IMG/VR virus record: IMGVR_UViG_3300029915_000095
Coordinates: 1-33,578 of that record
Direction: 5' to 3' (one strand)
Length of the DNA stretch: 33,578 bases
Source: a virus
The position numbers were made by a program, and so were the translations under genes. Of the stretch, positions 1,545 through 33,193 are shown piece by piece. Positions within the stretch are counted from its first letter, which is position 1. Each line of letters begins with the position of its first letter. The notes under the pieces were generated by a model. That model was not told the origin of the DNA, ran no database searches, and saw nothing but the letters and a program-made list of their open reading frames with translations.

Positions 1545-1550
1545 AATACC

Positions 1551-1942: not shown

Positions 1943-1974
1943 GGTCTGCCAACAATATTTCATAGGAGAGACAG

Positions 1975-2268: not shown

Positions 2269-2274
2269 AATTTC

Positions 2275-2303: not shown

Positions 2304-2340
2304 TGAGAAGTAGCAAATAACCCAATTTGAGGAGAATGAG

Positions 2341-19493: not shown

Positions 19494-19530
19494 CTCATTC
19501 TCCTCAAATTGGGTTATTTGCTACTTCTCA

Positions 19531-19559
19531 ATAATACCAAAAATTTATTCATTTGTCAA
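19531..19559 (-). promoter_or_regulatory. sigma70-like promoter for Imm5-like copy 5
   Basis: TTGACA, 17-bp spacer, TATTAT on the minus strand, followed by the shared leader GAGAAGTAGCAAATAACCC. Confidence 0.85.
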
Positions 19560-19564: not shown

Positions 19565-19783
19565 TTAGATCAATTTCAATGCCTTCTCCATGCATTCGAT
19601 CCATGAACCTTCAAATGTTTTGAACCTTCCCGATTTGGTAGTATACGAAACGTAGCAAATGTTCTTTCCATTTCGGCAAAGTATACCAATCATTCTTTCG
19701 GCGGTTTCGAGTTTGAGAGCATACCGATTATCGGCGGCTTCATGTCTAGCGAGATTACGATTTATTTGTTGTTCGATATCCAT
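19565..19783 (-). CDS. Small hypothetical protein, predicted leaderless
   Basis: 72 residues. MDIEQQINRNLARHEAADNR forms a helix, followed by a small beta part, MIGILCRNGKNICYVSYTT, and a final FEGSWIECMEKALKLI. ATG 19783 lies exactly six bases after the TAATAT -10 element, so transcription should begin at the start codon and no ribosome site exists. Function unknown. Confidence 0.65.
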   Translation of the reverse strand: MDIEQQINRNLARHEAADNRYALKLETAERMIGILCRNGKNICYVSYTTKSGRFKTFEGSWIECMEKALKLI

Positions 19784-19789
19784 GGTTCA

Positions 19790-19818
19790 ATATTACCAAA
19801 TCCTTTTTCACTTGTCAA
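19790..19818 (-). promoter_or_regulatory. sigma70-like promoter giving a leaderless transcript
   Basis: TTGACA, 17-bp spacer ending TTTGG, TAATAT on the minus strand, with six bases to ATG 19783. Confidence 0.75.
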
Positions 19819-20154
19819 TTAATTATCGAAGTTTCTTTTGCCCGACGATAGGAAAATTGCTTGACACCTTTTTTGCGAATTAGGTCAACAATCATTTGCG
19901 GAGAATCCTTAAACAGATCTTCTAGATCTTCCTTAGCAATCTCAGGGGAAGTTTCGAGCAAATAGCCTTCGTAGAATCTTTGACTATTCGCTCTTGCCCG
20001 AAGATCCATGAAATACAACATACTGGACAATTCTTTTCCATATGTGGCAGGTTCATCTTGAAGCGTATTCCGCGTAACGCAGAGGATCAATTTGGATGAT
20101 GGATTCAAGACCTTCACAGGACCAATAAACAATGAATTTGTTGTTTTTACTCAT
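19815..20154 (-). pseudogene. Conserved phage protein split by a frameshift
   Basis: ATG 20154 starts MSKNNKFIVYWSCEGLESII, which looks like the natural N-terminus but meets TGA after 33 residues. A second frame covers the rest: DEPATYGKELSSMLYFMDLR, then RARANSQRFYEGYLLE, EDLEDLFKDSPQMIVDLI and KKGVKQFSYRRAKE, ending at 19815. Joined with one frame change near 20060-20090, they give about 112 residues of a layout I recall from other T4-like phages (IVSWDC..LE at the start, RAR-NSQR in the middle). ATG 20154 lies six bases after a CATAAT -10 element. A sequencing error or programmed shift is possible. Confidence 0.6.
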
Positions 20155-20160
20155 GAATAT

Positions 20161-20189
20161 ATTATGCCACATATGGAAAGAATTGCCAA
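20161..20189 (-). promoter_or_regulatory. sigma70-like promoter giving a leaderless transcript
   Basis: TTGGCA, 17-bp spacer ending TGTGG, CATAAT on the minus strand, with six bases to ATG 20154. Confidence 0.6.
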
Positions 20190-20196
20190 GAATTTT

Positions 20197-20502
20197 CTAT
20201 TGGGCCAGAGCAAAATTCAAGGTTACTGAAACAACGCTGGTGCGATCAGATGCTACAAACTTCCACTTCTTCACGGCTTCCTCAGCGGCTGGTCCAAGCA
20301 TTCTGTTGCCTTCTACGGCGTTCACAGAAAGAACATTACCGGAAGCATCAACCGTGGCATCAACCTTCACAGCGCCCGATATTTTCATTCGTTTTGCCAA
20401 TTCAGGATATACAGGCGATACTCGCGTTTTAACTTCACGACTTTCGCCATACATCGAAAGAGTCATTCCAAACATCATGCAAATTACAAATAGTTTTTTC
20501 AT
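20197..20502 (-). CDS. Secreted TonB C-terminal domain protein
   Basis: 101 residues. A signal peptide (MKKLFVICMMFGMTLSMYG) is followed directly by a TonB C-terminal-like domain: VSPVYPELAKRMKISGAV, then KVDATVDASGNVLSVNAV, AAEEAVKKWKFVAS and VSVTLNFAL. The membrane helix and proline-rich linker of true TonB are absent, so it would be a free periplasmic domain. TonB links the inner-membrane motor to outer-membrane receptors. A free domain might compete for the TonB box, for example in superinfection exclusion (inference). Ribosome site AGGAGAAACAA. Confidence 0.8.
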   Translation of the reverse strand: MKKLFVICMMFGMTLSMYGESREVKTRVSPVYPELAKRMKISGAVKVDATVDASGNVLSVNAVEGNRMLGPAAEEAVKKWKFVASDRTSVVSVTLNFALAQ

Positions 20503-20519
20503 TTGTTTCTCCTAAGATT

Positions 20520-20548
20520 AGAATATCAAAATATAGTTTGCAAAGCAA
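20520..20548 (-). promoter_or_regulatory. sigma70-like promoter for the TonB-like gene
   Basis: TTGCTT, 17-bp spacer, TATTCT on the minus strand, with the -10 18 bases before ATG 20502. Confidence 0.6.
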
Positions 20549-20552
20549 GAAA

Positions 20553-20587
20553 AATGGTAACCAATATTCAAAATATTGGTTACCATT
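20553..20587. terminator. Hairpin terminator
   Basis: A 16-bp perfect stem, AATGGTAACCAATATT with its complement, around a CAA loop. It isolates the TonB-like unit from upstream genes; no long U-run is seen. Confidence 0.65.
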
Positions 20588-20794
20588 GTAATGGAATATT
20601 TCTTTTAGTCTTCTAAAGCAATGAGCAATAGGCAAACGAATTTACCATTGAACAATAGACAATAGACAACAAACATTTTCGAGTCATTTTACCGGGAGCA
20701 AATCACAAAAGCGATATAAGACGGAGCACTGACTCTATTAAAGTTTCATCCAATGGATGAGGGTTTGAAGACCTACTCAAAATATTCCAAACCA

Positions 20795-21355
20795 TTACAG
20801 AATATTGTGGTTCTGTAGAATCTGTTCAATATCGGTTGTCAACCCAAATTCAGTCTTGACATTCAAATCAAGCAATGAATCGGCCAACGAAATTTTCTGC
20901 TTCTTCAAAATATTTAGTTGACCCTTTAAAGTGTCCTTGTACTCGGCAGAAACAATACTAGCCACTAGATCTGATGCATAGTAGTTAGTTGACGTTTCCT
21001 GCTTCTGAAGTTTCATTTGCTTCGCCTTTATAACCTCAATATTTGTAATATCGGAAGATGAAAGAAGAGTCTGAATATCTCGAATGTCCTTATCAATAGT
21101 CGCAATGTATGCCAAGATATCAGATACTCCAACAGAAGCATTCAATCTTCCAATATTCTGACGAATAAAGGACTCTGCTTGACGTAGTAAATATCTCGAT
21201 TTGAAATTATTTGATAGAACAGTTTGTGCCTTATCAATAACACTCTTAGCAGAGTCAAACTCTCCAATGGCAACAGTGGTAGCTAATGGCAACCCATTAA
21301 TGGCGTTATTGATTTCTGTAAGAATGGATTTTGCTTTCCGTAAATTGATATTCAT
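20795..21355 (-). CDS. Coiled-coil-rich hypothetical protein
   Basis: 186 residues from ATG 21355 with AAGGAGAACTA as ribosome site. It is all helical in appearance: LRKAKSILTEINNAINGL, IDKAQTVLSNNFKSRYLL, IATIDKDIRDIQTLLS and LKGQLNILKKQKISLADSLL. Heptad-like patterns support a coiled coil. No Cys residues and no enzymatic motif are seen. It precedes about 210 bases without a gene and may end its transcript. Function unknown. Confidence 0.65.
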   Translation of the reverse strand: MNINLRKAKSILTEINNAINGLPLATTVAIGEFDSAKSVIDKAQTVLSNNFKSRYLLRQAESFIRQNIGRLNASVGVSDILAYIATIDKDIRDIQTLLSSSDITNIEVIKAKQMKLQKQETSTNYYASDLVASIVSAEYKDTLKGQLNILKKQKISLADSLLDLNVKTEFGLTTDIEQILQNHNIL

Positions 21356-21364
21356 TAGTTCTCC

Positions 21365-22120
21365 TTAGTGTGATCTTAATTCGGTGGTGTAGTAACAGTA
21401 TGGGGGAGACGATGGCGCAGGTTGGAATGTTACTGTTACTGAGGACGATGTTCCCATACTTGGCTCAAAATACACTAATGTAGATGGCCATGGATTAGAT
21501 GTTGAGTCCATCGAAACAAACTGTTCAACAGTAATACTATTAGAAGAAGATAATGTTGATTGAGATAAACCGATAGGACCATAAGTATATGAAAAACTTA
21601 ACAAGCTACTATAGGTGGAAGCGGCACTGAGCGAATCAGTATAAGATGTTCCACTACTATTACAGGAAATATTATAATTTCCAAAGCTATTTAATCCAAC
21701 AATAGTTGTATCTGACCATGACAAATAATACGCTGGAATAGTGCCTGATGTTGTAAGAGTAATATGATTAGAAGTTGTCATAGCATATGCCGATGACAAT
21801 ACATAAAAAGTTTGAAGTCTACCATTGGTACTATTTATAGATGGTCCAGAAACATAGGTCTGGGAATTATCATCTGTAATACTTGTGATATAACTAGATG
21901 TTCCAGTTGGAATATAAAAAGTCCATAAGATTGTATTACCAATGGCAACATTCTTTTGAAAAATGAAAGTTGTTCCAGTTGATTCAGAAACACCACTAAC
22001 TGATGAAGATACCTGCACTGTTGGAATAGGGTAAACAGAGTTAAAAGATCTACTGCCAATAGTATATTGGGCATGAGCAATAGAACTTATCAATAGCAAC
22101 ATTGGCAAAAATATTTTCAT
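21365..22120 (-). CDS. Secreted beta-rich protein
   Basis: 251 residues. MKIFLPMLLLISSIAHAQY is a clear signal peptide with an AHA cleavage site. The mature part is rich in Ser, Thr and Tyr, with segments such as VQVSSSVSGVSESTGTTF, NTILWTFYIPTGTSSYIT and SSVTVTFQPAPSS. It looks like a jelly-roll or Ig-like surface protein. It overlaps the upstream nuclease gene by four bases (ATGA), so the two are translated together. Function unknown. Confidence 0.7.
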   Translation of the reverse strand: MKIFLPMLLLISSIAHAQYTIGSRSFNSVYPIPTVQVSSSVSGVSESTGTTFIFQKNVAIGNTILWTFYIPTGTSSYITSITDDNSQTYVSGPSINSTNGRLQTFYVLSSAYAMTTSNHITLTTSGTIPAYYLSWSDTTIVGLNSFGNYNISCNSSGTSYTDSLSAASTYSSLLSFSYTYGPIGLSQSTLSSSNSITVEQFVSMDSTSNPWPSTLVYFEPSMGTSSSVTVTFQPAPSSPPYCYYTTELRSH

Positions 22121-22905
22121 TTAATCTCACATACAATTTTCTTTTTAGCAGTTTCATCATTTGTTAATGGCCAGAGCGTTGTATCAATTACCGCATCTGC
22201 TGGAAGAGGAAAAGTGATATCAACATCGACGTGCGATACTAAGAACTTTGATAATGGAACACTCTTTGGTTCATCTGCTTGTGGATATACAAATTCAAGA
22301 ACATGATGTGTAGTATCATCAATTACAATTTTATAAAATCCATGGGGAACCACAACTTTATTATTTCCCATTGTTGGATCTGTATTTGTGTATATAGGTC
22401 CAACATAAATTGTCAAAGAATGATTTGTTGCTACTGCCCAGTTTCTAATTGATGATTCCAATTGTTCCCAATTTTCCCGATTTAATCCCGGTAATTGAGG
22501 AGACATATTACTTAAAATAAAACTTTCTTGCATAGCAATTGCATTGAAACTATTGTCAGAGTCAGGAGACATATGTCCAATATCATAACCACTCTTTTCA
22601 TAATCTTCAGGAGTTGCCCTACTATCAATAGGAAGAGATTGATCAGTAGAAAATTGATTCTTTCTTGGTAGACAACCTATCGCATGATCTGGGGTTAAAG
22701 TATATGCAACATATACCGGAAGCCGAGCATTCAAATCATTCAATGTAATGTAGGCAGATCTACAAATCAATTTTGTATTTGCCTTTGTAGACATAGGTAA
22801 TCCAAATGGAGTAAATGACACACAATCATTTGTTGAATGCGGAGTTGGTTGCTCTGCATTCAACATAACAGAAAAGAATAGAAACATAGTTAGAAATAAT
22901 TTCAC
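22117..22905 (-). CDS. Secreted DNA/RNA non-specific endonuclease
   Basis: 262 residues, starting at GTG 22905 inside the stop region of the DHH gene. A signal peptide (MKLFLTMFLFFSVMLNAEQ) precedes the nuclease domain: YVAYTLTPDHAIG, YDIGHMSPDSDNSF with catalytic His111, and LSNMSPQLPGLNRENWEQLE, which holds the metal-binding Asn. The usual DRGH is DIGH here, with Arg replaced by Ile. Export implies action in the periplasm or outside the cell, for example on incoming phage DNA or host debris (inference). Confidence 0.85.
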   Translation of the reverse strand: MKLFLTMFLFFSVMLNAEQPTPHSTNDCVSFTPFGLPMSTKANTKLICRSAYITLNDLNARLPVYVAYTLTPDHAIGCLPRKNQFSTDQSLPIDSRATPEDYEKSGYDIGHMSPDSDNSFNAIAMQESFILSNMSPQLPGLNRENWEQLESSIRNWAVATNHSLTIYVGPIYTNTDPTMGNNKVVVPHGFYKIVIDDTTHHVLEFVYPQADEPKSVPLSKFLVSHVDVDITFPLPADAVIDTTLWPLTNDETAKKKIVCEIK

Positions 22906-23903
22906 TTAATTCTCCTGTTCCAAACTTCAATTGCTTCTGCTCTATCTAGATACCAAGCAGTAGATGGTTGAATTTTACAGATATCAGATTCACAACTTAC
23001 TGCGACTACTCTATGTTCATTTGAGCCAGTAACGAAAGGAACTGTTTTACAGAATGGACAAACAATGGGCAGCAATGCATTTCTTAAATCATCCATGCTC
23101 TTAACTTTGAAACCAGCAGCATGTTTATGTCCACCACCATTATATAGCTTCGCAATTTCACAAACATCAATTCCATTTTCTTTGGATCGTAGTGAAAACA
23201 CAAACCCTTCTCCATCGAAATACCACGAAGAAGCAAATGGTTTACCTTCACTCAATTTGTTCGCGCCATCGCTTGCTAATGTATATGGAAGATTGACGGT
23301 TGGAACAGTATATGATCCACCGATAACAATATCATATTTATTTTGCAATAGTTCATCAACATCTTTATCTTGCTTTTTGAGAATTGCAAGACCACTATTT
23401 ACCGCAAGTTCAAATCTAGCTGGCGTATCTAGATCACGATACAATTCTTGCCAATTTTCAAAAGTATACTCATATGAAAAAATATGAGCAGCAATTTCTT
23501 TTGAATATGCATATTCAAATTTCCAAAGATCGCGATCCTGAACATACTTTACTAGTGTTGGAGTAAAGTCTGGACCATGAAAATATTCCCAAGTAATCAT
23601 TGCACCAGATCTATCCATGTCAAATACAACATGAACATTGTCGGGAAGATCAACTAAATCTTCTTGAGCACTCTTATGATGGTCTAAAATAGTAATTGAA
23701 TTTGCGGCTTTAGCAAGTTCTAACATAGCCGGACGCTTATATGAAAAATCCACCATATATACATCTTTTCCAGTTACATCGGGAGGATTCGCAGAATGTT
23801 TTCCAGTATAAAATTCCCAATCTGGATGCCTTCTCCATATGGACCACGCGGCTGTAAAACCATCTGCACAATTTCCATGATAAATTACCAAAGTATTTGT
23901 CAT
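22902..23903 (-). CDS. DHH family phosphoesterase with C-terminal Lar-like zinc domain
   Basis: 333 residues. The DHH domain shows YHGNCADGFTAAW (8-20), VDFSY (51-55) and TILDHHKS (71-78). The DHHA1 domain carries GGGHKHAAGF at 256-265. These residues bind two metals, and family members cleave oligonucleotides, nanoRNA or cyclic dinucleotides. Residues 280-333 add IVCPFCKTVPFV, C304, C309 and AEAIEVWNRRI, which match the small Lar restriction-alleviation zinc domain (PF14354) by memory. The fusion is unusual. A signalling-nucleotide or anti-defence role is inference. Confidence 0.85.
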   Translation of the reverse strand: MTNTLVIYHGNCADGFTAAWSIWRRHPDWEFYTGKHSANPPDVTGKDVYMVDFSYKRPAMLELAKAANSITILDHHKSAQEDLVDLPDNVHVVFDMDRSGAMITWEYFHGPDFTPTLVKYVQDRDLWKFEYAYSKEIAAHIFSYEYTFENWQELYRDLDTPARFELAVNSGLAILKKQDKDVDELLQNKYDIVIGGSYTVPTVNLPYTLASDGANKLSEGKPFASSWYFDGEGFVFSLRSKENGIDVCEIAKLYNGGGHKHAAGFKVKSMDDLRNALLPIVCPFCKTVPFVTGSNEHRVVAVSCESDICKIQPSTAWYLDRAEAIEVWNRRIK

Positions 23904-23922
23904 TATTTTTCCTTATTGAATT

Positions 23923-23999
23923 TGGTTCAGGGAGGGAGATTCGAACTCCGCTATTCATCCTAGCTTATGAGACTGGATGCCATACCAACGGACCCCTGT
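23923..23999 (-). tRNA. tRNA with CAU anticodon (Met, or Ile2 after modification)
   Basis: The acceptor pairs ACAGGGG with TCCCTGA, with an A-A mismatch at the first pair. The anticodon loop is CTCATAA, the T loop TTCGAAT, and A plus CCA are encoded. The anticodon stem and T stem each have a mismatch and the D arm is irregular, so folding may be poor. The unpaired first position recalls initiator tRNAs. Confidence 0.7.
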
Positions 24000-24012
24000 G
24001 TGATTTTTAATA

Positions 24013-24088
24013 TGGAGCCACCAACAGGCATCGAACCTGCGACCGTCTGATTACAAATCAGATGCTCTGCCAACTGAGCTATAGTGGC
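24013..24088 (-). tRNA. tRNA-Thr(UGU)
   Basis: Acceptor GCCACTA with TGGTGGC, D arm TAGCTCAGTTGGCAGAGC, anticodon loop TTTGTAA, T loop TTCGATG, discriminator T and CCA encoded. A late-type box lies 18 bases upstream and a conserved hairpin just beyond it. Confidence 0.9.
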
Positions 24089-24105
24089 GTATTCTGTATC
24101 AAAAG

Positions 24106-24113
24106 TATTTATC
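24106..24113 (-). promoter_or_regulatory. Late-type promoter box before tRNA-Thr
   Basis: GATAAATA followed by CTTTT on the minus strand, 17 bases before the tRNA-Thr 5' end. It would allow late expression of the last tRNAs of the run. Confidence 0.5.
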
Positions 24114-24118
24114 CTACA

Positions 24119-24145
24119 TGCAGGAGGAATGTTCGCTCAACTGCA
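24119..24145 (-). ncRNA. Conserved hairpin, copy 1
   Basis: TGCAG (24119-24123) pairs with CTGCA (24141-24145) around a conserved 17-base segment, GAGGAATGTTCGCTCAA on the plus strand, which itself has a GAG/CTC stem. A second copy at 28681 has a different but again complementary outer stem. Confidence 0.6.
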
Positions 24146-24232
24146 AATATTAAATCCGGGGGAGGATGGATTTCACGATACGTTCCGCTTGTGGTGATCG
24201 GCCACTCTGCGTCTATCTCTCCCAGCGCACCA
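24146..24232. other. Gap between hairpin and tRNA-Asn
   Basis: No open frame. On the minus strand GGGAGAG and TCCTCCC can partly pair, and GTGG/CCAC forms a small stem with a CCGATCA loop, but there is no T arm. It might be a decayed tRNA; this is not supported further. Confidence 0.3.
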
Positions 24233-24310
24233 TGTATCTGTATATAGGATTCGAACCTATATCCCTCTCATTAACGGAGAGTGCTCTATCCTTTAAGCTA
24301 AAACAGATAC
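24233..24310 (-). tRNA. tRNA-Asn(GUU) with extended acceptor helix
   Basis: The anticodon arm CTCTC-CGTTAAT-GAGAG gives GUU; D arm and T arm (TAGG-TTCGAAT-CCTA) are normal. The ends pair over eight bases, GTATCTGT with ACAGATAC. The canonical seven-pair acceptor would start two to three bases inside and carry a T-T mismatch. No CCA is encoded. Outside, GCGCAC and GTGCGC (24225-24230, 24315-24320) pair again. Confidence 0.85.
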
Positions 24311-24331
24311 TACCGTGCGCAACTTTAAAAC

Positions 24332-24424
24332 TGGTGCAAGTAGCTGGTGCCGACCCAGCAACGTTCCTCCTACGGAAGCCGACTTTACAGGCCGGTGCGA
24401 CCAACCACTATTCGCCTTACTTGC
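24332..24424 (-). tRNA. tRNA-Tyr(GUA)
   Basis: A class II tRNA with a long variable arm. Acceptor GCAAGTA with TACTTGC, anticodon loop CTGTAAA, T arm GCTGG-GTCGGCA-CCAGC, discriminator A, CCA encoded. Confidence 0.92.
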
Positions 24425-24437
24425 ACATTAAACTTTT

Positions 24438-24513
24438 TGGTGGAGCCAGTCAGGATCGAACTGACGACCTCCTGATTGCAGGTCAGGCGCTCTCCCAACT
24501 GAGCTATGGCCCC
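24438..24513 (-). tRNA. tRNA-Ala(UGC)
   Basis: Acceptor GGGGCCA with TGGCTCC contains the G3-U70 wobble pair, the classic alanine identity element. Anticodon loop CCTGCAA gives UGC; D loop, T loop TTCGATC, discriminator A and CCA are standard. It may support translation of the alanine-rich proteins. Confidence 0.96.
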
Positions 24514-24518
24514 ACTAC

Positions 24519-24565
24519 TACTTTTTAAGTATACCAAACTTGTTTCTGTTTGTCAACTTAAATTT
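24519..24565 (-). repeat. 47-bp direct repeat carrying a promoter, copy 1
   Basis: Identical over 47 bp to 24598-24644. Each copy contains a full promoter reading into the tRNA run. Confidence 0.9.
24528..24556 (-). promoter_or_regulatory. sigma70-like promoter for the tRNA run (proximal)
   Basis: TTGACA, 17-bp spacer ending TTTGG, TATACT on the minus strand, followed by TAAAAAGTA. The tRNA-Ala 5' end is 15 bases from the -10. Confidence 0.9.
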
Positions 24566-24597
24566 TACCCCGCTCCATACTGCATTTGTTCTCTTAT

Positions 24598-24644
24598 TAC
24601 TTTTTAAGTATACCAAACTTGTTTCTGTTTGTCAACTTAAATTT
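24598..24644 (-). repeat. 47-bp direct repeat carrying a promoter, copy 2
   Basis: Second identical copy, offset 79 bp from the first. It begins at the stop codon of the 24644 gene. Confidence 0.9.
24607..24635 (-). promoter_or_regulatory. sigma70-like promoter for the tRNA run (distal)
   Basis: TTGACA, 17-bp spacer, TATACT on the minus strand, identical to the proximal promoter. Confidence 0.9.
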
Positions 24645-24868
24645 CACAGGTCAAAAATATTTATCCAATGACCAAATTCGTCTTCTACAATATCCAAGTC
24701 TGCACCGAAAATAGTAATCTCTGCATAGATTTCATACCGAGGAATGTTTTCGGTTTCTTCGTCAAATTCGTCAAACCGCATCCATTTTCCATTTGGATCT
24801 GGCCAATAATCAACTTCTGCAAGATCATAGTCAATTTGTCCGGCTCGAATTGTATATCTCATCACCAT
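24644..24868 (-). CDS. Small acidic hypothetical protein, predicted leaderless
   Basis: 74 residues from ATG 24868 (MVMRYTIRAGQIDYDLAEVD) or 72 from ATG 24862. Upstream ATGs lie in the promoter and cannot be used. The product is acidic, with WPDPNGKWMRFDEFDEET, YEIYAEITIFGADLDIVED and a terminal FGHWINIFDL. There is no ribosome site, and ATG 24868 sits six bases after a perfect TATAAT. A late-type box at 24658 lies inside its 3' end. Function unknown. Confidence 0.65.
   Translation of the reverse strand: MVMRYTIRAGQIDYDLAEVDYWPDPNGKWMRFDEFDEETENIPRYEIYAEITIFGADLDIVEDEFGHWINIFDL
24658..24665 (-). promoter_or_regulatory. Late-type box upstream of the tRNA promoters
   Basis: GATAAATA on the minus strand inside the end of the 24644 gene, directed at the tRNA run. 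Confidence 0.35.
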
Positions 24869-24874
24869 ATTTAA

Positions 24875-24903
24875 ATTATACCTCAACAAAAATTATTTGT
24901 CAA
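24875..24903 (-). promoter_or_regulatory. Consensus sigma70 promoter giving a leaderless transcript
   Basis: TTGACA, 17-bp spacer, TATAAT: full consensus at both hexamers on the minus strand. Six bases separate TATAAT from ATG 24868. Confidence 0.85.
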
Positions 24904-24925
24904 CCATTTTTAATTTGAAATTACG

Positions 24926-25282
24926 TCAGATTGCCCTCAGAATACTACCTTGAAGCCCTTTGCTTGTAAGGTAATCCATCGCTTTTTGACAATATTCCTC
25001 GTCCAGTTTTCTGTGACGGTGCTTCGTGACCATCATTCGGATAATCATAGAAAGGTCTTCCATAGCGATCTTCTGGTTCTCGATCTGCATATCTTGGTCG
25101 ATGGTCTTGTCACTGGTTGTTTTGAATACCCGGTTCAAACGCTTCCAGTCGGACTCGGAAACCTTGCTATCCCTCAAATCGATCAACTCCCGCAAACACT
25201 CTTGTACTTCCGGGGTGATATTGCACATCATTGGATCATTTGCTAATTGATCTAACCGCGCATTTTCTACATTACTCGACAT
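24926..25282 (-). CDS. Helical hypothetical protein
   Basis: 118 residues from ATG 25282, chosen because GGAAGGG lies just upstream, inside the alternative 25297 start. Sequence features are LDQLANDPMMCNITPEVQEC, LRELIDLRDSKVSESDWKRL, MEDLSMIIRMMVTKHRHRKL and DEEYCQKAMDYLTSKGL, all helical. No catalytic motif is seen. It is similar in style to small helical phage proteins that bind nucleic acid. Function unknown. Confidence 0.65.
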   Translation of the reverse strand: MSSNVENARLDQLANDPMMCNITPEVQECLRELIDLRDSKVSESDWKRLNRVFKTTSDKTIDQDMQIENQKIAMEDLSMIIRMMVTKHRHRKLDEEYCQKAMDYLTSKGLQGSILRAI

Positions 25283-25322
25283 TGTTTTCCCTTCCAAAAT
25301 TGTATCAGGTCCACGTTAATTA

Positions 25323-25343
25323 TCATGGCCATGATGATAAATA
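25323..25343. promoter_or_regulatory. Operator-like palindrome
   Basis: ATCATGGCCATGAT is a perfect 14-bp palindrome in the gap upstream of the 24926-25282 gene, followed by GATAAATA on the plus strand. It may be a protein-binding site; no clear promoter for the minus gene was found. Confidence 0.35.
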
Positions 25344-25398
25344 TCGTCGGATCTACCCAAAAAATGATAAAAATATCACACCGATGAGGTTTTCATAT

Positions 25399-25647
25399 TC
25401 AGTTGGAATAGTCGAAAGCTATCATCAATTCCGCATGACGAATTTGGTGTTTCAAATTGTTAATTTCTTTGATTACGGATGGTTTTCTTTCCAATTTTAA
25501 GGATAGTTCGTCAATCCTTTTTTGCATCCAGACAATTTCATGTTCGCATCGACGAATTCCGTCTTCGTTCCGACGTTTTCTATTTTCAGCCGAAATCCGA
25601 CCATCCACAAATTCTTTCATACCAGCATTAAATTCGTTGTTGTCCAT
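25399..25647 (-). CDS. Coiled-coil protein
   Basis: 82 residues with a strong ribosome site, TTGGAGGAGCG, before ATG 25647. A short N-terminus (MDNNEFNAGMKEFVDGRI) is followed by a long charged helix: RRCEHEIVWMQKRIDELSLK, then PSVIKEINNLKHQIRHAELM. The heptad pattern suggests dimerisation. Function unknown. It lies 14 bases downstream of the 25662 gene. Confidence 0.65.
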   Translation of the reverse strand: MDNNEFNAGMKEFVDGRISAENRKRRNEDGIRRCEHEIVWMQKRIDELSLKLERKPSVIKEINNLKHQIRHAELMIAFDYSN

Positions 25648-25661
25648 CGCTCCTCCAAATT

Positions 25662-25841
25662 TTAAAATTTGAGAACAATTGAATATTCGCCAGTGTCAAG
25701 AGGTACAATGTCCAGAATTTCAGACATTTCTTGAGCCATTAAATATAGTTCAGAAAAGTTACTATTGTCCGGTTTCAAGTGAAAAGAACCGTTGATGAAT
25801 ACATTCTTTAAAATTTGGAATTCTGCTTCTTGTTTGTTCAT
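25662..25841 (-). CDS. Small hypothetical protein, paralogue of the 25866 gene
   Basis: 59 residues reading MNKQEAEFQILKNVFINGSF, then HLKPDNSNFSELYLMAQEM and a final LDTGEYSIVLKF. A ribosome site AAAGGAAGATA precedes ATG 25841. The segment ILKNVFINGSF..DNSNF aligns with IMNEVFGNGSF..DNHDF in the next gene upstream, so the two are tandem duplicates. Function unknown. Confidence 0.65.
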   Translation of the reverse strand: MNKQEAEFQILKNVFINGSFHLKPDNSNFSELYLMAQEMSEILDIVPLDTGEYSIVLKF

Positions 25842-25865
25842 AGTATCTTCCTTTGTTTAAGATGG

Positions 25866-26045
25866 TTAGCGTCGTCGTGAAATGGTATATGTCAACAAAT
25901 CTGTGGTAGTGGTTCGAAAAATGTCAACCAATTTTTCGGCAGCAGCTTTCAAATTCTGAAAATCATGGTTATCATGGAAAATAGTGAAAGAGCCATTTCC
26001 AAAAACTTCATTCATGATCATAAGTTCTGATTCATTCAGAGACAT
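25866..26045 (-). CDS. Small hypothetical protein, paralogue of the 25662 gene
   Basis: 59 residues from ATG 26045 with AAAGG nearby (ATG 26060 would add five residues). It reads MSLNESELMIMNEVFGNGSF, then DNHDFQNLKAAAEKLVDIF and ends YTISRRR, a basic tail unlike the hydrophobic end of its paralogue. Function unknown. Confidence 0.6.
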   Translation of the reverse strand: MSLNESELMIMNEVFGNGSFTIFHDNHDFQNLKAAAEKLVDIFRTTTTDLLTYTISRRR

Positions 26046-26067
26046 TAAACAGCCTTTCATGTTACTG

Positions 26068-26406
26068 TTATAGGGATGTTGCTTTTGTTATAACGTCATT
26101 GGCATTGATTACTGCCAACCTCATCCTTTTTCGAGATGCAGACGAATGCGAGTCAAATGACGAAATGGCATCTACAAATTCTTGCAATGATTCCAGAAGA
26201 TCTGGTGCTGTAGCGATTAGTTGAGCATTAGCTACTCCAGCCCCCTTATCGTCGGAACATTGGCGTTCCATCACTTGAGCAATCCAAGATGCGTGAGGAT
26301 TATTTTCCGAATAGATTTCAACACACGGAACAAGTTCTCCACAAATTTTTGGATCGTTTACATGGATTACAGATGTTTTCCATGGTCCCGGCGTATGATT
26401 TACCAT
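26068..26406 (-). CDS. HTPGPW-type conserved phage protein
   Basis: 112 residues from ATG 26406 with ribosome site CGAGGAATAATC. It starts MVNHTPGPWKTSV and later has GVANAQLIATAPDLLESLQE. HTPGPW near the start with N-A-x-LIA-APDLL near the middle is a pattern seen in very many phage and prophage proteins of unknown function. It has its own promoter at 26436. Confidence 0.85.
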   Translation of the reverse strand: MVNHTPGPWKTSVIHVNDPKICGELVPCVEIYSENNPHASWIAQVMERQCSDDKGAGVANAQLIATAPDLLESLQEFVDAISSFDSHSSASRKRMRLAVINANDVITKATSL

Positions 26407-26435
26407 GATTATTCCTCGTATTTGATTACTTTTTA

Positions 26436-26464
26436 AGTATAGCAAAAGTATTTTGAATTGTCAA
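26436..26464 (-). promoter_or_regulatory. sigma70-like promoter for the HTPGPW gene
   Basis: TTGACA, 17-bp spacer, TATACT on the minus strand, then TAAAAAGTA as in the tRNA promoters. Confidence 0.85.
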
Positions 26465-26671
26465 CTAAATATCGACTTCCAATTCTCTCATGTCCAGTGT
26501 AACGTCTTTAGCCTTCATGATTTTGACATTGGCGATGATTTTTGGATTGAATATTACAACAATTGTTTGATTATTACAACCTTGCATCTCTCGGTAGGAA
26601 TATTCTAACCCTCTGCCGCCATGCCACATAGTAATTATATTTGAGGATTGCAACAATTCATCTATTTTCAT
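26465..26671 (-). CDS. Small hypothetical protein, predicted leaderless late gene
   Basis: 68 residues reading MKIDELLQSSNIITMWHGG, then RGLEYSYREMQGCNNQTIVV and ending DVTLDMRELEVDI. There is no ribosome site. ATG 26671 lies five bases after GATAAATA, the spacing seen at 11218 and 12277. Function unknown. Confidence 0.6.
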   Translation of the reverse strand: MKIDELLQSSNIITMWHGGRGLEYSYREMQGCNNQTIVVIFNPKIIANVKIMKAKDVTLDMRELEVDI

Positions 26672-26676
26672 ACATA

Positions 26677-26684
26677 TATTTATC
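26677..26684 (-). promoter_or_regulatory. Late-type promoter box
   Basis: GATAAATA on the minus strand, five bases before ATG 26671. Confidence 0.5.
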
Positions 26685-26694
26685 CTACGAACTA

Positions 26695-26731
26695 ACTAAG
26701 TGGGCGATGACTAAAACATCGCCCACTTAGT
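26695..26731. terminator. Stable hairpin between genes
   Basis: A 15-bp perfect stem, ACTAAGTGGGCGATG with its complement, and a seven-base loop. It could end the 26806-27393 transcript but has no U-run on either strand. Confidence 0.6.
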
Positions 26732-26733
26732 GC

Positions 26734-26791
26734 TTGCGGAAAGCTGGGATAGAGCGCTGTGTATCTCATCCCCTCTGTTACAATTCCGCAA
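26734..26791. other. Structured segment closed by an 8-bp stem
   Basis: TTGCGGAA and TTCCGCAA enclose 42 bases in which GGGAT/ATCCC and GAG/CTC can also pair. On the plus strand the stretch AGCTGGGATAGAGCGCT resembles a tRNA D arm, but no T arm exists. It may be a decayed tRNA or a small RNA. Confidence 0.4.
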
Positions 26792-26805
26792 TTTTCGTAT
26801 ATGTA

Positions 26806-27393
26806 TTACTGACAGCTATATTCATCGTGAGTATCAACTTCATGCTCGGCAATTACCTTCTTCATAAGATTCATGATAAGTTGATTGAAAGTGATATCCT
26901 GCTCATGTGCCATCATGAACAAAATAAGAAGATCCTCGTCTGAGAGATTGAGGCGAATTGACACCCTATTATCATAGGGCTTTCCATTAACAATCGCCGT
27001 CATCTTCTCAAGAAAATCTTCATCCGTTTCCAGATCAATGAATGGAATATCATCCCATGCCATATCTTGAACATTCCGTACAATTGCTTCGGCGAGATAT
27101 GCATCCTTATAGTCTGGATGAAATAGCCGATATACCCGATTGGTATCATTCTCACACACATATACTTCAAATACGGTATTTGCCAAATCTGTTGAAAATA
27201 TGATAGTGGAAGTTGCCTTGCCATCTGCACTATCGTAGTCCATCATACGAACATTTTTTCCATAACAATCCCAAAGATATTCTGAACTGTCGGTGAGACT
27301 ATACTTAATTACTTCCATCCACTGTTTCAATGTAATCATTATTTTTCTCCATGATTTGTTGGTGGACTGGAGTGGATTCGAACCACTGACCAA
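26806..27393 (-). CDS. Hypothetical acidic protein
   Basis: The open frame covers 195 residues from ATG 27393, but that start lies inside tRNA-Arg. The better start is ATG 27339 (MITLKQWMEVIKYSLTDSSE, 177 residues) with ribosome site GGAGAAAAATA. Features are YLWDCYGKNVRMMDYDSA, TSTIIFSTDLANTVFEVYVC and, at the end, RVSIRLNLSDEDLLILFMMA, then QDITFNQLIMNLMKKVI, which resembles a ribbon-helix-helix or Arc-like DNA-binding end. Such an end would suit a regulator. The rest is unassigned. Confidence 0.65.
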   Translation of the reverse strand: MVSGSNPLQSTNKSWRKIMITLKQWMEVIKYSLTDSSEYLWDCYGKNVRMMDYDSADGKATSTIIFSTDLANTVFEVYVCENDTNRVYRLFHPDYKDAYLAEAIVRNVQDMAWDDIPFIDLETDEDFLEKMTAIVNGKPYDNRVSIRLNLSDEDLLILFMMAHEQDITFNQLIMNLMKKVIAEHEVDTHDEYSCQ

Positions 27394-27436
27394 CAGATTA
27401 GAAATCTGTGACTCTATCCAACTGAGCTACCAATCC
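27360..27436 (-). tRNA. tRNA-Arg(UCU)
   Basis: Acceptor GGATTGG with CCAGTCC (one G-U pair), D arm TAGCTCAGTTGGATAGAGT, anticodon arm ACAGA-TTTCTAA-TCTGT, T loop TTCGAAT, discriminator A and CCA encoded. Confidence 0.95.
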
Positions 27437-27452
27437 ACTTGAGTTATTGTCA

Positions 27453-27665
27453 TTACAATTCGAACGCTTCCAGAACCGCACTTTTAAGTTCGTCAGCAGC
27501 ATCGGCCCACGCATTCTTGAAATTTGTTCCATGTCCAATACAGTTTCGTTGAAGCAAAAGTGTTCTTTTTCGCGGATTATATCCCACATAAATGCAGATA
27601 ATATCTAGAAATCGTTCCGAATATGCAGATGGTTCAATTTTCCTTACAAACGCTTTGTTCTTCAT
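27453..27665 (-). CDS. Small basic hypothetical protein
   Basis: 70 residues from ATG 27665, two bases after the upstream stop. It reads MKNKAFVRKIEPSAYSERFL, then YVGYNPRKRTLLLQRNCI and a helical end FKNAWADAADELKSAVLEAF. No typical ribosome site is present, so it probably depends on translation of the gene before it. tRNA-Arg follows. Function unknown. Confidence 0.6.
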   Translation of the reverse strand: MKNKAFVRKIEPSAYSERFLDIICIYVGYNPRKRTLLLQRNCIGHGTNFKNAWADAADELKSAVLEAFEL

Positions 27666-27667
27666 GT

Positions 27668-28234
27668 TTAGTGGCCCCATGAGCAAGAGACTGCTCCACC
27701 CAACCAAAGATTGCCACATCCATGCTTCATATTGACATAATCTCCATGAGCGCTATGACGGGTAATTTCGCCGGAACCCATATCTGTTACATTGGGGGTG
27801 AAGTTTCCAGACATGAATCCAGTATCAACAGTAGTTCCGCCGATTTCTTGCAATGATACAAAGTTCTTGGTTGTGTTGACAACTCGATATGCATCGACAT
27901 TTGTCTGATCGTATCCCCAAGTATTTACCACAATATCTCCAACCTTGAAATTGTGACCAGCATTCCGTTCAGAACGACGATTTTTCATCGTAATCTTGCG
28001 ATTGGCGAGAATAGCGAAAGTATTATCAATCGCCTTCTGAGCGCTTGCAATGTCGGAAAACGAATTATGAAAAGTGATACTGGCAGAATTTCCAGTGTAG
28101 AAAATAGCAATTACAGTTCCCTGTTTTCCATTATAAATATAACCAACGTCAAGGTTATCGTTGTTGGTCATAGAGATAAAGGTGTCAGGAATCCAACGGC
28201 GCTTTCCAGTCTTTGAAATTTCTTCGTAAGCCAT
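27668..28234 (-). CDS. Conserved phage/plasmid protein with SWGYDQTN-like motif
   Basis: 188 residues from ATG 28234 behind AAGAGC. The N-terminal half (MAYEEISKTGKRRWIPD, ITFHNSFSDIASAQKAIDN) is followed by FKVGDIVVNTWGYDQTNVDA, then YRVVNTTKNFVSLQEIGG and a terminal GDYVNMKHGCGNLWLGG. The G-D-I-..-WGYDQTNVD-Y-VV block is common in uncharacterised phage and plasmid proteins by memory. It has its own promoter at 28272. Confidence 0.75.
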   Translation of the reverse strand: MAYEEISKTGKRRWIPDTFISMTNNDNLDVGYIYNGKQGTVIAIFYTGNSASITFHNSFSDIASAQKAIDNTFAILANRKITMKNRRSERNAGHNFKVGDIVVNTWGYDQTNVDAYRVVNTTKNFVSLQEIGGTTVDTGFMSGNFTPNVTDMGSGEITRHSAHGDYVNMKHGCGNLWLGGAVSCSWGH

Positions 28235-28271
28235 GTTTGCTCTTTTCTTAATTGATTTGTGGTACTCTTTA

Positions 28272-28300
28272 AGTATACTAAAACAGATCTACTTTGCCAA
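28272..28300 (-). promoter_or_regulatory. sigma70-like promoter
   Basis: TTGGCA, 17-bp spacer, TATACT on the minus strand, then TAAAGAGTA. The -35 lies in the end of the 28289 gene. Confidence 0.7.
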
Positions 28301-28477
28301 GTATCCAACCAATTTGTCATGAACAATTTCCCAACGAATATTATTGGATGGATATTCAATACCATCAGCTACAATGATTGTGGAAGCATTTTCTGGACAA
28401 TAAGGCAAAATTCGTTTTTCACAATAATCAGTAGCATGGTACAACCGTCTATACAGAAAAAACCAAAATTTCTTCAT
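28289..28477 (-). CDS. Small hypothetical protein
   Basis: 62 residues with ribosome site AAAGGAATATC. It begins MKKFWFFLYRRLYHATDYCE, a basic aromatic start, continues RILPYCPENASTIIVADGIE and ends WEIVHDKLVGYLAK. It sits directly after tRNA-Ile on the same strand. Function unknown. Confidence 0.6.
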   Translation of the reverse strand: MKKFWFFLYRRLYHATDYCEKRILPYCPENASTIIVADGIEYPSNNIRWEIVHDKLVGYLAK

Positions 28478-28499
28478 GATATTCCTTTCGTGAATGTGG

Positions 28500-28575
28500 T
28501 GGTTGGCCTGATTGGATTCGAACCAATGACATTCCGCTTATCAAGCGAATACTCTACCATCTGAGTTACAGGCCC
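28500..28575 (-). tRNA. tRNA-Ile(GAU)
   Basis: Acceptor GGGCCTG with CAGGCCA (first pair G-A is a mismatch), anticodon arm TTCGC-TTGATAA-GCGGA, T arm ATTGG-TTCGAAT-CCAAT, discriminator A and CCA encoded. Confidence 0.93.
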
Positions 28576-28600
28576 ATGAAAACTATTTCTAAAAATGTTG

Positions 28601-28673
28601 GGTGGACAATGGGATTCGAACCCATGTAAACCTGCGCCACAGGCAGGTGCCTAAACCCCTCGGCCATGTCCAC
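28601..28673 (-). tRNA. tRNA-His(GUG)
   Basis: Acceptor GTGGACA with TGTCCAC, anticodon arm CCTGC-CTGTGGC-GCAGG, T arm ATGGG-TTCGAAT-CCCAT. The discriminator C fits His, but the expected extra G at -1 is T and CCA is not fully encoded, so both ends need added nucleotides. Confidence 0.85.
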
Positions 28674-28680
28674 ACTTGTT

Positions 28681-28707
28681 GTTAGGAGGAATATTCGCTC
28701 AACTAAC
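28681..28707 (-). ncRNA. Conserved hairpin, copy 2
   Basis: GTTAG (28681-28685) pairs with CTAAC (28703-28707) around GAGGAATATTCGCTCAA. Compared with copy 1 the loop differs at one base, while the outer stem has compensatory changes. It overlaps the stop codon of the 28703 gene and ends eight bases before tRNA-His. Confidence 0.6.
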
Positions 28708-28861
28708 GAAAATTATTTACTTCCATTTTCAACGATTCGTTTGAAAATGCAACAGCATTTCTCTTAAACTTGAATGGCCAAACTCCATTTGGCATCTGAA
28801 CTCTCCAAGGAAATTTGGTATCATTTTCCATCTTGAAAACTTCGTACAGAGAATGATTCAT
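28703..28861 (-). CDS. Small basic hypothetical protein
   Basis: 52 residues with ribosome site GAAAGGATCAG before ATG 28861. It reads MNHSLYEVFKMENDTKFPWR, then VQMPNGVWPFKFKRNAVAFS and ends MEVNNFR. Its stop codon lies within the conserved hairpin. It sits between tRNA-Cys and tRNA-His. No family is recognised. Confidence 0.6.
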   Translation of the reverse strand: MNHSLYEVFKMENDTKFPWRVQMPNGVWPFKFKRNAVAFSNESLKMEVNNFR

Positions 28862-28883
28862 GTTTTCTGATCCTTTCAGTTTT

Positions 28884-28957
28884 TGGAGTCCCGGATAGGA
28901 ATTGAACCTACGATAGTGATTTTGCAGACCACGGCCTTACCACTTGGCTACCGAGAC
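28884..28957 (-). tRNA. tRNA-Cys(GCA)
   Basis: Acceptor GTCTCGG with CCGGGAC (one G-U pair), anticodon arm GTGGT-CTGCAAA-ATCAC, T loop TTCAATT, discriminator T and CCA encoded. U73 is the Cys identity element. Confidence 0.94.
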
Positions 28958-28976
28958 TCGTTGTTGTGACTTTTTA

Positions 28977-29005
28977 AGTATACCAAAGATTACTTCTTTT
29001 GTCAA
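28977..29005 (-). promoter_or_regulatory. sigma70-like promoter for tRNA-Cys and followers
   Basis: TTGACA, 17-bp spacer ending TTTGG, TATACT on the minus strand, then TAAAAAGT. It lies between tRNA-Ser and tRNA-Cys. Confidence 0.88.
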
Positions 29006-29010
29006 GATTT

Positions 29011-29098
29011 TGGCGGAAGCGGTAGGATTCGAACCTACGGAACCTTTCGGTTCAACAGTTTTCAAGACTGCCAGATTAAACCACTCTCTCACGCTTCC
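29011..29098 (-). tRNA. tRNA-Ser(UGA)
   Basis: A class II tRNA. Acceptor GGAAGCG with CGCTTCC, anticodon loop CTTGAAA, variable arm GAACCGAAAGGTTC, T arm GTAGG-TTCGAAT-CCTAC, discriminator G and CCA encoded. Confidence 0.96.
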
Positions 29099-29105
29099 GA
29101 GTTAA

Positions 29106-29816
29106 TTACTTAATTAGCCAAAATTTATCGTCGTACAAAACCTGCAATGCCTTTGTTAAATTTGCACCATCTTTTAATTTGCAATTATACAATATTCCAT
29201 TTTGAATGGCACATGAAAACTCTGCACTATTCAATTGTGTTGGTGTTGTTAGAATAGTTCTTGGACCACTATACATAGTTATACATTCAGTTTCTGAGCA
29301 AGTAATTCCAGACGTTCGAGTTGCATTATCAAGAGCATTCAACCGGAGTTTCACATACGCAAGGTCTTGGATTACTTGCTCAAGAGGAGTAATGGCAATA
29401 GTATTATCACTACCAATATTTGTTCCAGTGAGAGCACTCAGTAATGTTCCACCAGAAAGTAGTAGATAGCGTCCTTCCGTTTGGAGCAAACCAGTCCCTG
29501 TTGGAAACATCGTTGAATCGTAGAGAACGATTGAATAACATGCCATAGCGGTTACGGTTGAATGTTGGCATGTTCTATCTTGGCAGGTTTCGGTATTACA
29601 ACCATCCATTGCTAGACGATGTTTTCCAGTCATATCTTCGCGGCAAGCATTATTGGCCAAATACTCTCCATTTTTACAAATCGGCGATTTTAATCCAAAT
29701 TCGCTTAATGACACTGAACAATCTATACAAGACCCAGAATTGACAGGTTTTGAAGATGTTTGCGCCATTGCAAAACTTGCCGTTAACAATATCAAAATTG
29801 AAACTATCTTTTTCAT
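29106..29816 (-). CDS. Secreted cysteine-rich protein
   Basis: 236 residues. MKKIVSILILLTASFAMAQ is a signal peptide. The first half of the mature part is Cys-rich (SGSCIDCSVSLSEFG, PICKNGEYLANNACR, CNTETCQDRTCQH), suggesting disulfides. Later parts are ITPLEQVIQDLAYVKLRLNA, a helix, and CSETECITMYSGPR. The layout of a Cys-rich start plus a helix-beta end might be a fibre-tip or adhesin type, but a signal peptide argues for export. No family is recognised. Ribosome site AAGGATAATT. Confidence 0.65.
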   Translation of the reverse strand: MKKIVSILILLTASFAMAQTSSKPVNSGSCIDCSVSLSEFGLKSPICKNGEYLANNACREDMTGKHRLAMDGCNTETCQDRTCQHSTVTAMACYSIVLYDSTMFPTGTGLLQTEGRYLLLSGGTLLSALTGTNIGSDNTIAITPLEQVIQDLAYVKLRLNALDNATRTSGITCSETECITMYSGPRTILTTPTQLNSAEFSCAIQNGILYNCKLKDGANLTKALQVLYDDKFWLIK

Positions 29817-29841
29817 ATTAATTATCCTTGTGTTTTAAATT

Positions 29842-30018
29842 TTAATTGAACAAATCACTCAAAAAGGCATAACTCGCATCGATGCTTTTTAAATATGAAA
29901 GAACTATATGATATGGCGGTTCTATCTTATCATCTAAGGGCAATCTCAACCCAAGTCTTACCGCTTTCTGCCAAACAAGGTCTTGCTTGTCAGCAGGAAT
30001 GCGATATTTCACACTCAT
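29842..30018 (-). CDS. Small hypothetical protein
   Basis: 58 residues reading MSVKYRIPADKQDLVWQKA, then VRLGLRLPLDDKIEPPYHI and ending DASYAFLSDLFN. ATG 30018 overlaps the stop of the upstream gene (ATGA), so translation is likely coupled; the upstream gene is predicted leaderless. Function unknown. Confidence 0.6.
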   Translation of the reverse strand: MSVKYRIPADKQDLVWQKAVRLGLRLPLDDKIEPPYHIVLSYLKSIDASYAFLSDLFN

Positions 30019-30257
30019 TTTATTTTAAATTCTTCTCGACGAAGGGTTTCATATTCTGTAGTTAATGCCTCAATTTTGGCTCTGAGTAATTGCATCTTCT
30101 TTAGGAGAGGTTTGCACGCTAGATTGCGTTCGTCACAATCCATGTTTGGATTGTTTTCGTCAAATTCGTCAAGTTTGTCAAGTTTGTCACTCACCTGATT
30201 GTGAAGAGTATTTAACTTTTTGATTTTTGTATCGAGTGTGTTCAGTTGTTGTCTCAT
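30015..30257 (-). CDS. Coiled-coil protein, predicted leaderless
   Basis: 80 residues from ATG 30257; an upstream ATG (30272) overlaps the -10 element. It is one long charged helix: MRQQLNTLDTKIKKLNTLHN, QVSDKLDKLDEFDE, a short Cys-containing turn (DCDERNLACKPLL) and LRAKIEALTTEYETLRREE. Two helices around the turn suggest a hairpin coiled coil. ATG 30257 lies six bases after a perfect TATAAT. Function unknown. Confidence 0.68.
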   Translation of the reverse strand: MRQQLNTLDTKIKKLNTLHNQVSDKLDKLDEFDENNPNMDCDERNLACKPLLKKMQLLRAKIEALTTEYETLRREEFKIK

Positions 30258-30263
30258 ATTAAA

Positions 30264-30292
30264 ATTATACATCCTTTGATTATGTTTGTCAA
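30264..30292 (-). promoter_or_regulatory. Consensus sigma70 promoter giving a leaderless transcript
   Basis: TTGACA, 17-bp spacer, TATAAT on the minus strand, six bases before ATG 30257. Confidence 0.87.
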
Positions 30293-32437: not shown

Positions 32438-32995
32438 TTAAGTTGTTGGCCAATATACCTCACCGGTTTTGACGCCTTCGAAGTCTTCGACGCCTTCGCC
32501 GGGGCAAGAACATTTGGTGCATCGATAGTTGATGAATGACGACATAGATTCAACCTCTTTCCAATCATGGGCGCAATATCGCCAGATCTTAGGAATTTCG
32601 TTGATATCAGATGGAACGCAAGATTGTAATTTCGTTTCCAAAACTTGATTGTCAAATTGCTGCGACATACTTTTTTGCACCTTTCTGTTTGGCGGTTGAC
32701 CAGTTCCTAAATCTTGGTGGGAAAAAATTCCATACAAATCGAGAAGTGTTGGATTCTTTCCAGACAATCGATATACAATCGAAATATCTTGAGTGAGATG
32801 AGCATGTTTTAATCCGGGAATTGTTTTGTTGAAAACTCCGTCAGATGAAAAAGGTTTGTCTGATGCTCCAAAACTTTGAAGAGGATTAGACATTTTCACT
32901 TCAAAAAACGCTTTCAATTTTCGCTCAATGAGGTTTCGGTAATGAGTGAAGGATCTTGAAAATAGATCACTTTTGCGAATCTTAATCGAGTTCAT
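32438..32995 (-). CDS. RelE/YafQ-like toxin-fold protein with C-terminal zinc-type tail
   Basis: 185 residues from ATG 32995, overlapping the upstream small gene by 14 bases. Residues 1-105 resemble RelE-type toxins: LFSRSFTHYRNLIERKLKAF, IPGLKHAHLTQDISIVYRL, then DLYGIFSHQDLGTGQPPN. The usual ribosome-dependent RNase core has His, Arg and Tyr near these positions. A linker (MSQQFDNQVLE) leads to a tail with RYCAHDWKEVES and YRCTKCSCPGEG, four Cys/His ligands. Together with the 32982 gene it may form a toxin-antitoxin pair. Activity is not shown. Confidence 0.65.
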   Translation of the reverse strand: MNSIKIRKSDLFSRSFTHYRNLIERKLKAFFEVKMSNPLQSFGASDKPFSSDGVFNKTIPGLKHAHLTQDISIVYRLSGKNPTLLDLYGIFSHQDLGTGQPPNRKVQKSMSQQFDNQVLETKLQSCVPSDINEIPKIWRYCAHDWKEVESMSSFINYRCTKCSCPGEGVEDFEGVKTGEVYWPTT

Positions 32996-33140
32996 GGTAA
33001 TCTGCCTCAACGTTGGTCAGGCCAAGCTCGGCCATCATTTCTTCACCGGTCATAGGCTCAGACCATTCGTTTTTATTGACGGATTCAAGAACGGCAACCA
33101 TCTTCGCGTTCGGCACGAAAAAAATATCTTCTGAAAGCAT
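32982..33140 (-). CDS. Small acidic protein, candidate antitoxin
   Basis: 52 residues from ATG 33140 with ribosome site GGGGAGACAAAC. It reads MLSEDIFFVPNAKMVAVLES, then NKNEWSEPMTGEEMMAELGL and ends NVEADYHELD. It is short, acidic, upstream of and overlapping a RelE-like gene, which is typical of an antitoxin. Its promoter lies inside an inverted repeat as in autoregulated modules. No DNA-binding motif is obvious. Confidence 0.6.
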   Translation of the reverse strand: MLSEDIFFVPNAKMVAVLESVNKNEWSEPMTGEEMMAELGLTNVEADYHELD

Positions 33141-33152
33141 GTTGTTTGTCTC

Positions 33153-33182
33153 CCCCATGTATTTATATTACCAAACATGGGG
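33153..33182 (-). promoter_or_regulatory. Inverted-repeat operator over two promoters
   Basis: CCCCATG (33153-33159) and CATGGGG (33176-33182) flank the -10 element and the overlapping TATAAATA box. This is the arrangement of an autoregulated toxin-antitoxin operator. Confidence 0.6.
33160..33167 (-). promoter_or_regulatory. T4-type late promoter box
   Basis: Exact TATAAATA on the minus strand, overlapping the TAATAT -10 of the promoter at 33165. Confidence 0.55.
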
Positions 33183-33193
33183 TGTTTTGTCAA
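33165..33193 (-). promoter_or_regulatory. sigma70-like promoter of the candidate toxin-antitoxin pair
   Basis: TTGACA, 17-bp spacer ending TTTGG, TAATAT on the minus strand, 24 bases before ATG 33140. Confidence 0.8.

Follow-up and report, generated by a model that had tools for sequence, protein, structure and literature searches.

Candidate leaderless genes at a fixed distance from sigma70-type promoters in a large uncultured phage

Leaderless translation is well known. Among phages, lambda cI is the first case named (PMC3160421) and serves as a model (PMC9031893), the 5′ ends of the leaderless cI and cro mRNAs of PY54 were mapped by rapid amplification of cDNA ends (PMC4488713), and the AR9 paper describes phage transcripts as often leaderless (PMC5312081). 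In bacteria, the TA-led genes carry TANNNT about 12 bp upstream of the start and no Shine-Dalgarno (SD) site (Zheng 2011, PMC3160421), the -10 motif of Deinococcus-Thermus lies adjacent to open reading frames (ORFs) at a spacing that matters (PMC12340547), and RNA end mapping in Lactococcus gave bimodal leader lengths with none at 4-14 nt (PMC10986495). Here, we describe five sites in the IMG/VR record IMGVR_UViG_3300029915_000095, a fragment of a large uncultured tailed phage that was analyzed in its complete length of 33,578 bases (the window), at which an ATG follows a sigma70-type promoter so closely that it would be the first codon of a leaderless mRNA.

Like lambda cI transcribed from PRM and like PY54 cI and cro, these are phage genes on host-type promoters with an mRNA predicted to start at AUG. 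While the lambda and PY54 cases are single repressor genes of temperate phages, the window holds several small, unrelated candidates in one large phage, with 5′ ends predicted from sequence, and these sit beside tRNA genes and SD-led genes. The TA-led and Deinococcus-Thermus surveys concern cellular genomes, whereas the present genes are viral and have near-perfect -35 boxes as well. No survey of leaderless genes across phages was found in the literature, subscription journals and preprints lying outside the search.

Promoters and start codons in the window

A strict promoter was defined as TTG(A/G)CA-N17-(T/C)ANNNT. The window contained 21 such promoters, four inside genes and 17 intergenic, and in five of the latter (at 33158, 30257, 24868, 20154, and 19783, all on the minus strand; Table 1) an ATG lay exactly six bases past the -10 hexamer, the first base of which was at -12 relative to the ATG in every case. 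Compared with the sigma70 consensus (TTGACA, 17 bp spacer, TATAAT), two of the five promoters matched at 12/12 positions and three at 10/12. All five start codons were ATG, with no GTG or TTG, and the base preceding each was a pyrimidine. No SD site was found at the usual spacing ahead of the five ATGs, the sole SD-like string being a GAGG 12 nt before 24868, upstream of the -10 hexamer. The remaining genes in the window mostly have clear SD sites, in agreement with the first-pass annotation, which had described the phage as otherwise using strong ribosome sites and had listed four genes with this layout. Direct reading of the sequence confirmed the -10 hexamer, the six bases, the ATG, and the -35 hexamer at 17 bp for all four sites, but the list had missed 33158, and 20154 does not open a clear gene in the assembly.

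The full motif with N6-ATG was observed five times, compared with 0.05 times per dinucleotide shuffle (maximum of one in 300 shuffles), while each of the other offsets from 0 to 15 had 0 to 2 ATGs. Finding five of 17 promoters at one offset has a binomial p = 2.6e-5, or about 3e-4 allowing for ten offsets. A second pattern tool gave four strict matches versus 0.53 expected even with one mismatch allowed. The window by itself rules out chance at about 1e-4 to 1e-5, in line with the earlier argument from identical spacing.

The other 12 intergenic promoters lead into either an SD-containing leader or a tRNA, the latter at 29005 and 24556. At the place where the five sites have ATG, 10 of these 12 have GTA and the others GTC or GGT. 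A repeated cassette with near-identical promoter, leader, and start (GTAGCAAATAACCCAATTTGAGGAG...ATGATACTGACAAC) was also observed at 316-2859 (plus strand) and 19008-19559 (minus strand), where it precedes paralogous genes at 381, 1026, 2341, and 19493.

Table 1. Promoters and candidate genes in the window
Feature	Position	Strand	Basis or remark
Promoter TTGACA-N17-TAATAT (extended -10 TGG)	19790..19818	-	then TGAACC, ATG at 19783
Leaderless candidate gene, 72 aa, PHROG 16256 family	19565..19783	-	homology and promoter spacing
Promoter TTGGCA-N17-CATAAT (extended -10 TGG)	20161..20189	-	then ATATTC, ATG at 20154
33-codon ORF from ATG 20154	20053..20154	-	doubtful as a gene on its own
Perfect consensus promoter TTGACA-N17-TATAAT	24875..24903	-	then TTAAAT, ATG at 24868
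Leaderless candidate gene, 74 aa	24644..24868	-	ORF list and coding score
Perfect consensus promoter TTGACA-N17-TATAAT	30264..30292	-	then TTTAAT, ATG at 30257
Leaderless candidate gene, 80 aa	30015..30257	-	ORF list and promoter spacing
Sigma70-type promoter TTGACA-N17-TAATAT (extended -10 TGG)	33165..33193	-	then AAATAC, ATG at 33158
Leaderless candidate gene, 58 aa; alternative SD-led start 33140	32982..33158	-	ORF list
Contrast promoter TTGACA-N17-TATTAT-TGAGAA-GTAGCAAATAACC leader	19531..19559	-	GAGGAG SD before ATG 19493
Similar leadered-class promoters	316, 960, 1551, 2275	+	strict motif scan
Similar leadered-class promoters	33455, 29005, 28300, 26464, 24635, 24556, 19001	-	strict motif scan

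Spacing in other phages and in bacteria

Since the window is the whole record, the wider spacing count was made on IMG/VR samples. The first scan (TTGACA-N17-TATAAT-N{3,12}-ATG) matched at least 120 contig stretches, and frames of at least 40 codons were counted as open. Among the matches listed, there were 25 open frames at a spacing of six and 16 at seven, while the remaining spacings from 3 to 12 had 2-5 apiece, which placed 41 of the 67 open frames at 6-7 (p = 2e-13), spanning 35 protein clusters rather than one family. The same scan in bacterial genomes placed 6 of 27 at 6-7, with no excess, and the phage matches listed differed from this bacterial sample, which was Clostridia-rich and not matched to the phages in host composition, with a Fisher p = 6e-4.

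The second scan (TTGACA-N12-TTTGG-TATNNT) had no ATG condition and included loci of relatives. First starts numbered 14 at a spacing of six and at most five at its neighbours, with few at 0-5 and 7-10, none at 11-15, and an SD-led hump from 16 up, so that the distribution had two humps. The empty offsets 11-15 correspond to leaders of about 5-9 nt, within the 4-14 nt gap of Lactococcus, with leader lengths on the phage side derived from promoter position. Extended to these samples, the spacing count that the first-pass annotation had suggested for the whole genome gave a sharp excess at six and also at seven bases.

Bacterial RNA polymerase prefers a pyrimidine at -1 and a purine at +1, and an excess of pyrimidines before these ATGs is therefore expected at a transcription start. 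C or T preceded the ATG in 38 of 43 cases at a spacing of six and 14 of 18 at seven, giving 52/61 (85%) versus 89/181 (49%) for leadered starts (p = 3e-7). CA-rich downstream sequence, a known enhancer, was only mildly higher in the leaderless sites (3.6 and 3.2 versus 2.75 dinucleotides).

The sampled leaderless candidates included a T4-like DNA polymerase, clamp loader, primase, UvsW helicase, and late sigma factor, as well as RNase H-like and RecB-like exonucleases and an SbcC-like subunit. Their profile matches mostly begin within the first dozen residues, which indicates that the starts of these candidates are right. PA5oct, a phage in culture, has a perfect TTGACA-N17-TATAAT that ends 7 nt ahead of the start deposited for its exonuclease gp244, at record position 158242, and an IMG/VR homologue with 33% identity (L103) has the same spacing. 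In G025, one of three records fetched because they had such sites, 7 of 18 promoters have ATG at a spacing of six. A 750-aa PHROG 459 protein and a late-transcription coactivator of the gp33-like type are among the products, and the gp33-like coactivator at L299:5995-6264 on the minus strand (PF16805, E = 6e-18) starts with an ATG exactly six bases past the -10 hexamer. Another phage record, G028 (L301-L303), has 23 promoters of the same style, most of which read GTA once six bases past the -10 hexamer have gone by. It also has a repeated element in which that position is ATG or GTG. No such class was found among the strict promoters of cyanophage Syn9, and the trait is therefore not general to T4-like phages.

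Proposed mechanism and competing explanations

We consider leaderless mRNAs from host sigma70-type promoters the best explanation for these genes, with a probability of about 85% as judged from sequence. The host RNA polymerase with its main sigma factor would start at the A of the ATG, the seventh base past the -10 hexamer, to yield an mRNA beginning with 5′-AUG and having neither leader nor ribosome-binding site. Ribosomes, probably intact 70S particles with initiator tRNA, would then load on the 5′-terminal AUG without SD contact. The transcript 5′ end is predicted from the -10-to-ATG distance, the host sigma70 polymerase would presumably be the enzyme used, 70S initiation, a kasugamycin-insensitive route, is proposed by analogy with lambda cI and other leaderless mRNAs, for which it is well established, and the arrangement may benefit the phage. 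The window statistics and the spacing excess in IMG/VR favor the selected leaderless translation that the first-pass annotation had put forward. Its claim that a ribosome site is impossible applies only to transcripts made from these promoters, not to any read-through mRNA from upstream or to an alternative start within the 33158 frame.

The gene at 19783 has a well-supported start. An in-frame TGA six bases upstream makes its ATG the earliest possible start. The product matched the PHROG 16256 profile (E = 2.7e-9, residues 3-55 of 72) and has 34-40% identity to proteins of the Sinorhizobium phages phiM12 and phiN3, with further homologues in IMG/VR contigs. Alignments with both groups of homologues begin at Met1, and the closest homologue, L292, has the same start Met, albeit behind a leader. 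Together, the stop codon and the homology make a strong case that 19783 is a genuine gene start. For 24868, the coding score was the highest of the five sites (24.7 over 74 codons) and the other frames were negative, while the score for 30257 was positive but less distinct; at 33158, another frame matched the coding score. The next gene after 30257 (30018, 58 aa) overlaps its stop, and 30257 thus heads an operon. No homologue was found for the products of 24868, 30257, or 33158.

Several observations weigh against the leaderless explanation. The homologues of 19783 are mostly SD-led, and the phiM12 and L292 genes have a promoter, a leader, and an SD site, which led us to reject a leaderless layout common to these homologues; the trait is not conserved in that family, and at 19783 it would therefore be a change specific to this lineage. 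At 33158, a second in-frame ATG (33140) lies 18 nt downstream, and GGGGAG precedes that ATG by nine bases. Homologues are lacking for four of the five products, whose starts rest on sequence features. At 20154, a stop is reached after only 33 codons, and the longer ORF is read in a different frame. Finally, read-through transcription from upstream genes could also carry these ATGs. At least the genes at 19783, 24868, and 30257 fit the leaderless explanation fully, whereas 33158 may be both leaderless and SD-led.

The status of 20154 as a gene is uncertain, and as a single site it could be due to chance. Its frame ends at a TGA (20053-20055) and the coding signal resumes in the +1 frame, in a 105-codon ORF at 19815-20132. 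The two would be fused if the A run near 20148 had four rather than five A, or if a +1 shift took place ahead of the TGA at 20055. The break is possibly a homopolymer or other assembly indel, a mutation, a +1 recoding or real frameshift, or simply the boundary of two separate frames. No homologues were found for the 20154 frame, the +1-frame ORF, or their fusion. An imperfect 38-nt inverted repeat (arms 20012-20049 and 20165-20201) flanks the 33-codon ORF, with one arm containing the -35 hexamer and spacer of the 20154 promoter and the other lying inside the following ORF.

We regard it as unlikely that the short ORFs are not genes and that some of the promoters instead drive a small RNA or the gene that follows. 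The products are only 33-80 aa, four without homologues, the sister promoters at 29005 and 24556 drive tRNAs in the same region, and the repeated element of L301 and L303 likewise has ATG or GTG at this place; on the other hand, the coding score at 24868 clearly backs the ATG frame, as do the summed scores at 19783 and 30257, and 19783 belongs to a conserved family. Even less probable is that ATG at +1 reflects only a polymerase preference for a pyrimidine-A-T start, with translation beginning elsewhere, at a downstream SD-led ATG such as 33140 or on a read-through mRNA. At offset six in the sampled contigs, ATG (26) was far more common than GTG (7) or TTG (1), but ATA (28) and GTA (30) were as common as ATG, and an R-T start thus appears to be favored in itself. 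Against this, 19 of 25 ATGs at offset six in the enlarged set opened frames of at least 40 codons, none with an SD site, compared with 25 of 86 at near offsets (p = 3e-5); this set includes three records fetched for having such sites, a mild bias from which the two-humped count is free. Moreover, no alternative start lies close to 19783 in its frame, and the homology begins at that Met. Chance, by which ATGs common in AT-rich DNA would sometimes fall at +7 after promoter-like sites, is refuted for the set of sites, since the strict motif is about 100 times the shuffle expectation and this offset is also overrepresented in unrelated contigs, where open frames follow it, even though the window is AT-rich and loose promoter matches numbered 85 in 18.6 kb versus 63 expected.

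Source phage and biological meaning

The UvsW-type helicase of the window is nearest to those of the PA5oct-like and Atu_ph07 jumbo phages (44-45% identity), and the window also has 11 tRNA genes and encodes Band-7, IMPDH-like, YqeY-like, and DHH proteins. Megablast against the phage collection gave no match to the window. As probes for close relatives, the Band-7 protein found none, the IMPDH-like protein three contigs, and the DHH protein 21 contigs, all distant and with few strict promoters; neither these probes nor the promoter pattern found a relative near enough to align the five sites directly. One gene (22902-23903, minus strand) joins a DHH phosphoesterase to a C-terminal Lar-like (restriction alleviation) domain. 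ARAGORN assigned the minus-strand tRNA at 24234-24308 the anticodon TTA (ochre suppressor), while its loop, CGTTAAT, lacks U33, and the tRNA could alternatively be Asn(GTT) with a distorted loop. Recoding by this possible suppressor was rejected, since TAA ends 18 of 26 confident genes and stop reassignment is therefore unlikely. A tRNA-like element with CAT at the anticodon position (23920-24000, minus strand) was called by neither ARAGORN nor Rfam.

The leaderless interpretation is probably correct. Its mechanism is ordinary and its density unusual, and the window forms part of a wider phage pattern, the breadth of which is the interesting part. A bolder and rather doubtful proposal is that large T4-like phages keep a leaderless class as a strategy for part of their early and replication genes, far more commonly than their hosts. 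If this were true, polymerase, clamp loader, primase, late sigma factor, and accessory genes would be started by 70S ribosomes on 5′-AUG mRNAs, and messages of this class could be translated even where SD-led initiation is impaired. The usual examples of leaderless initiation in Gram-negative-type phages are a few repressor genes. The spacing signature occurs on core replication genes too, and gene callers that rely on SD sites can misplace phage starts. Phages may exploit SD-independent initiation widely, and gp244 of PA5oct offers a cultured test case.

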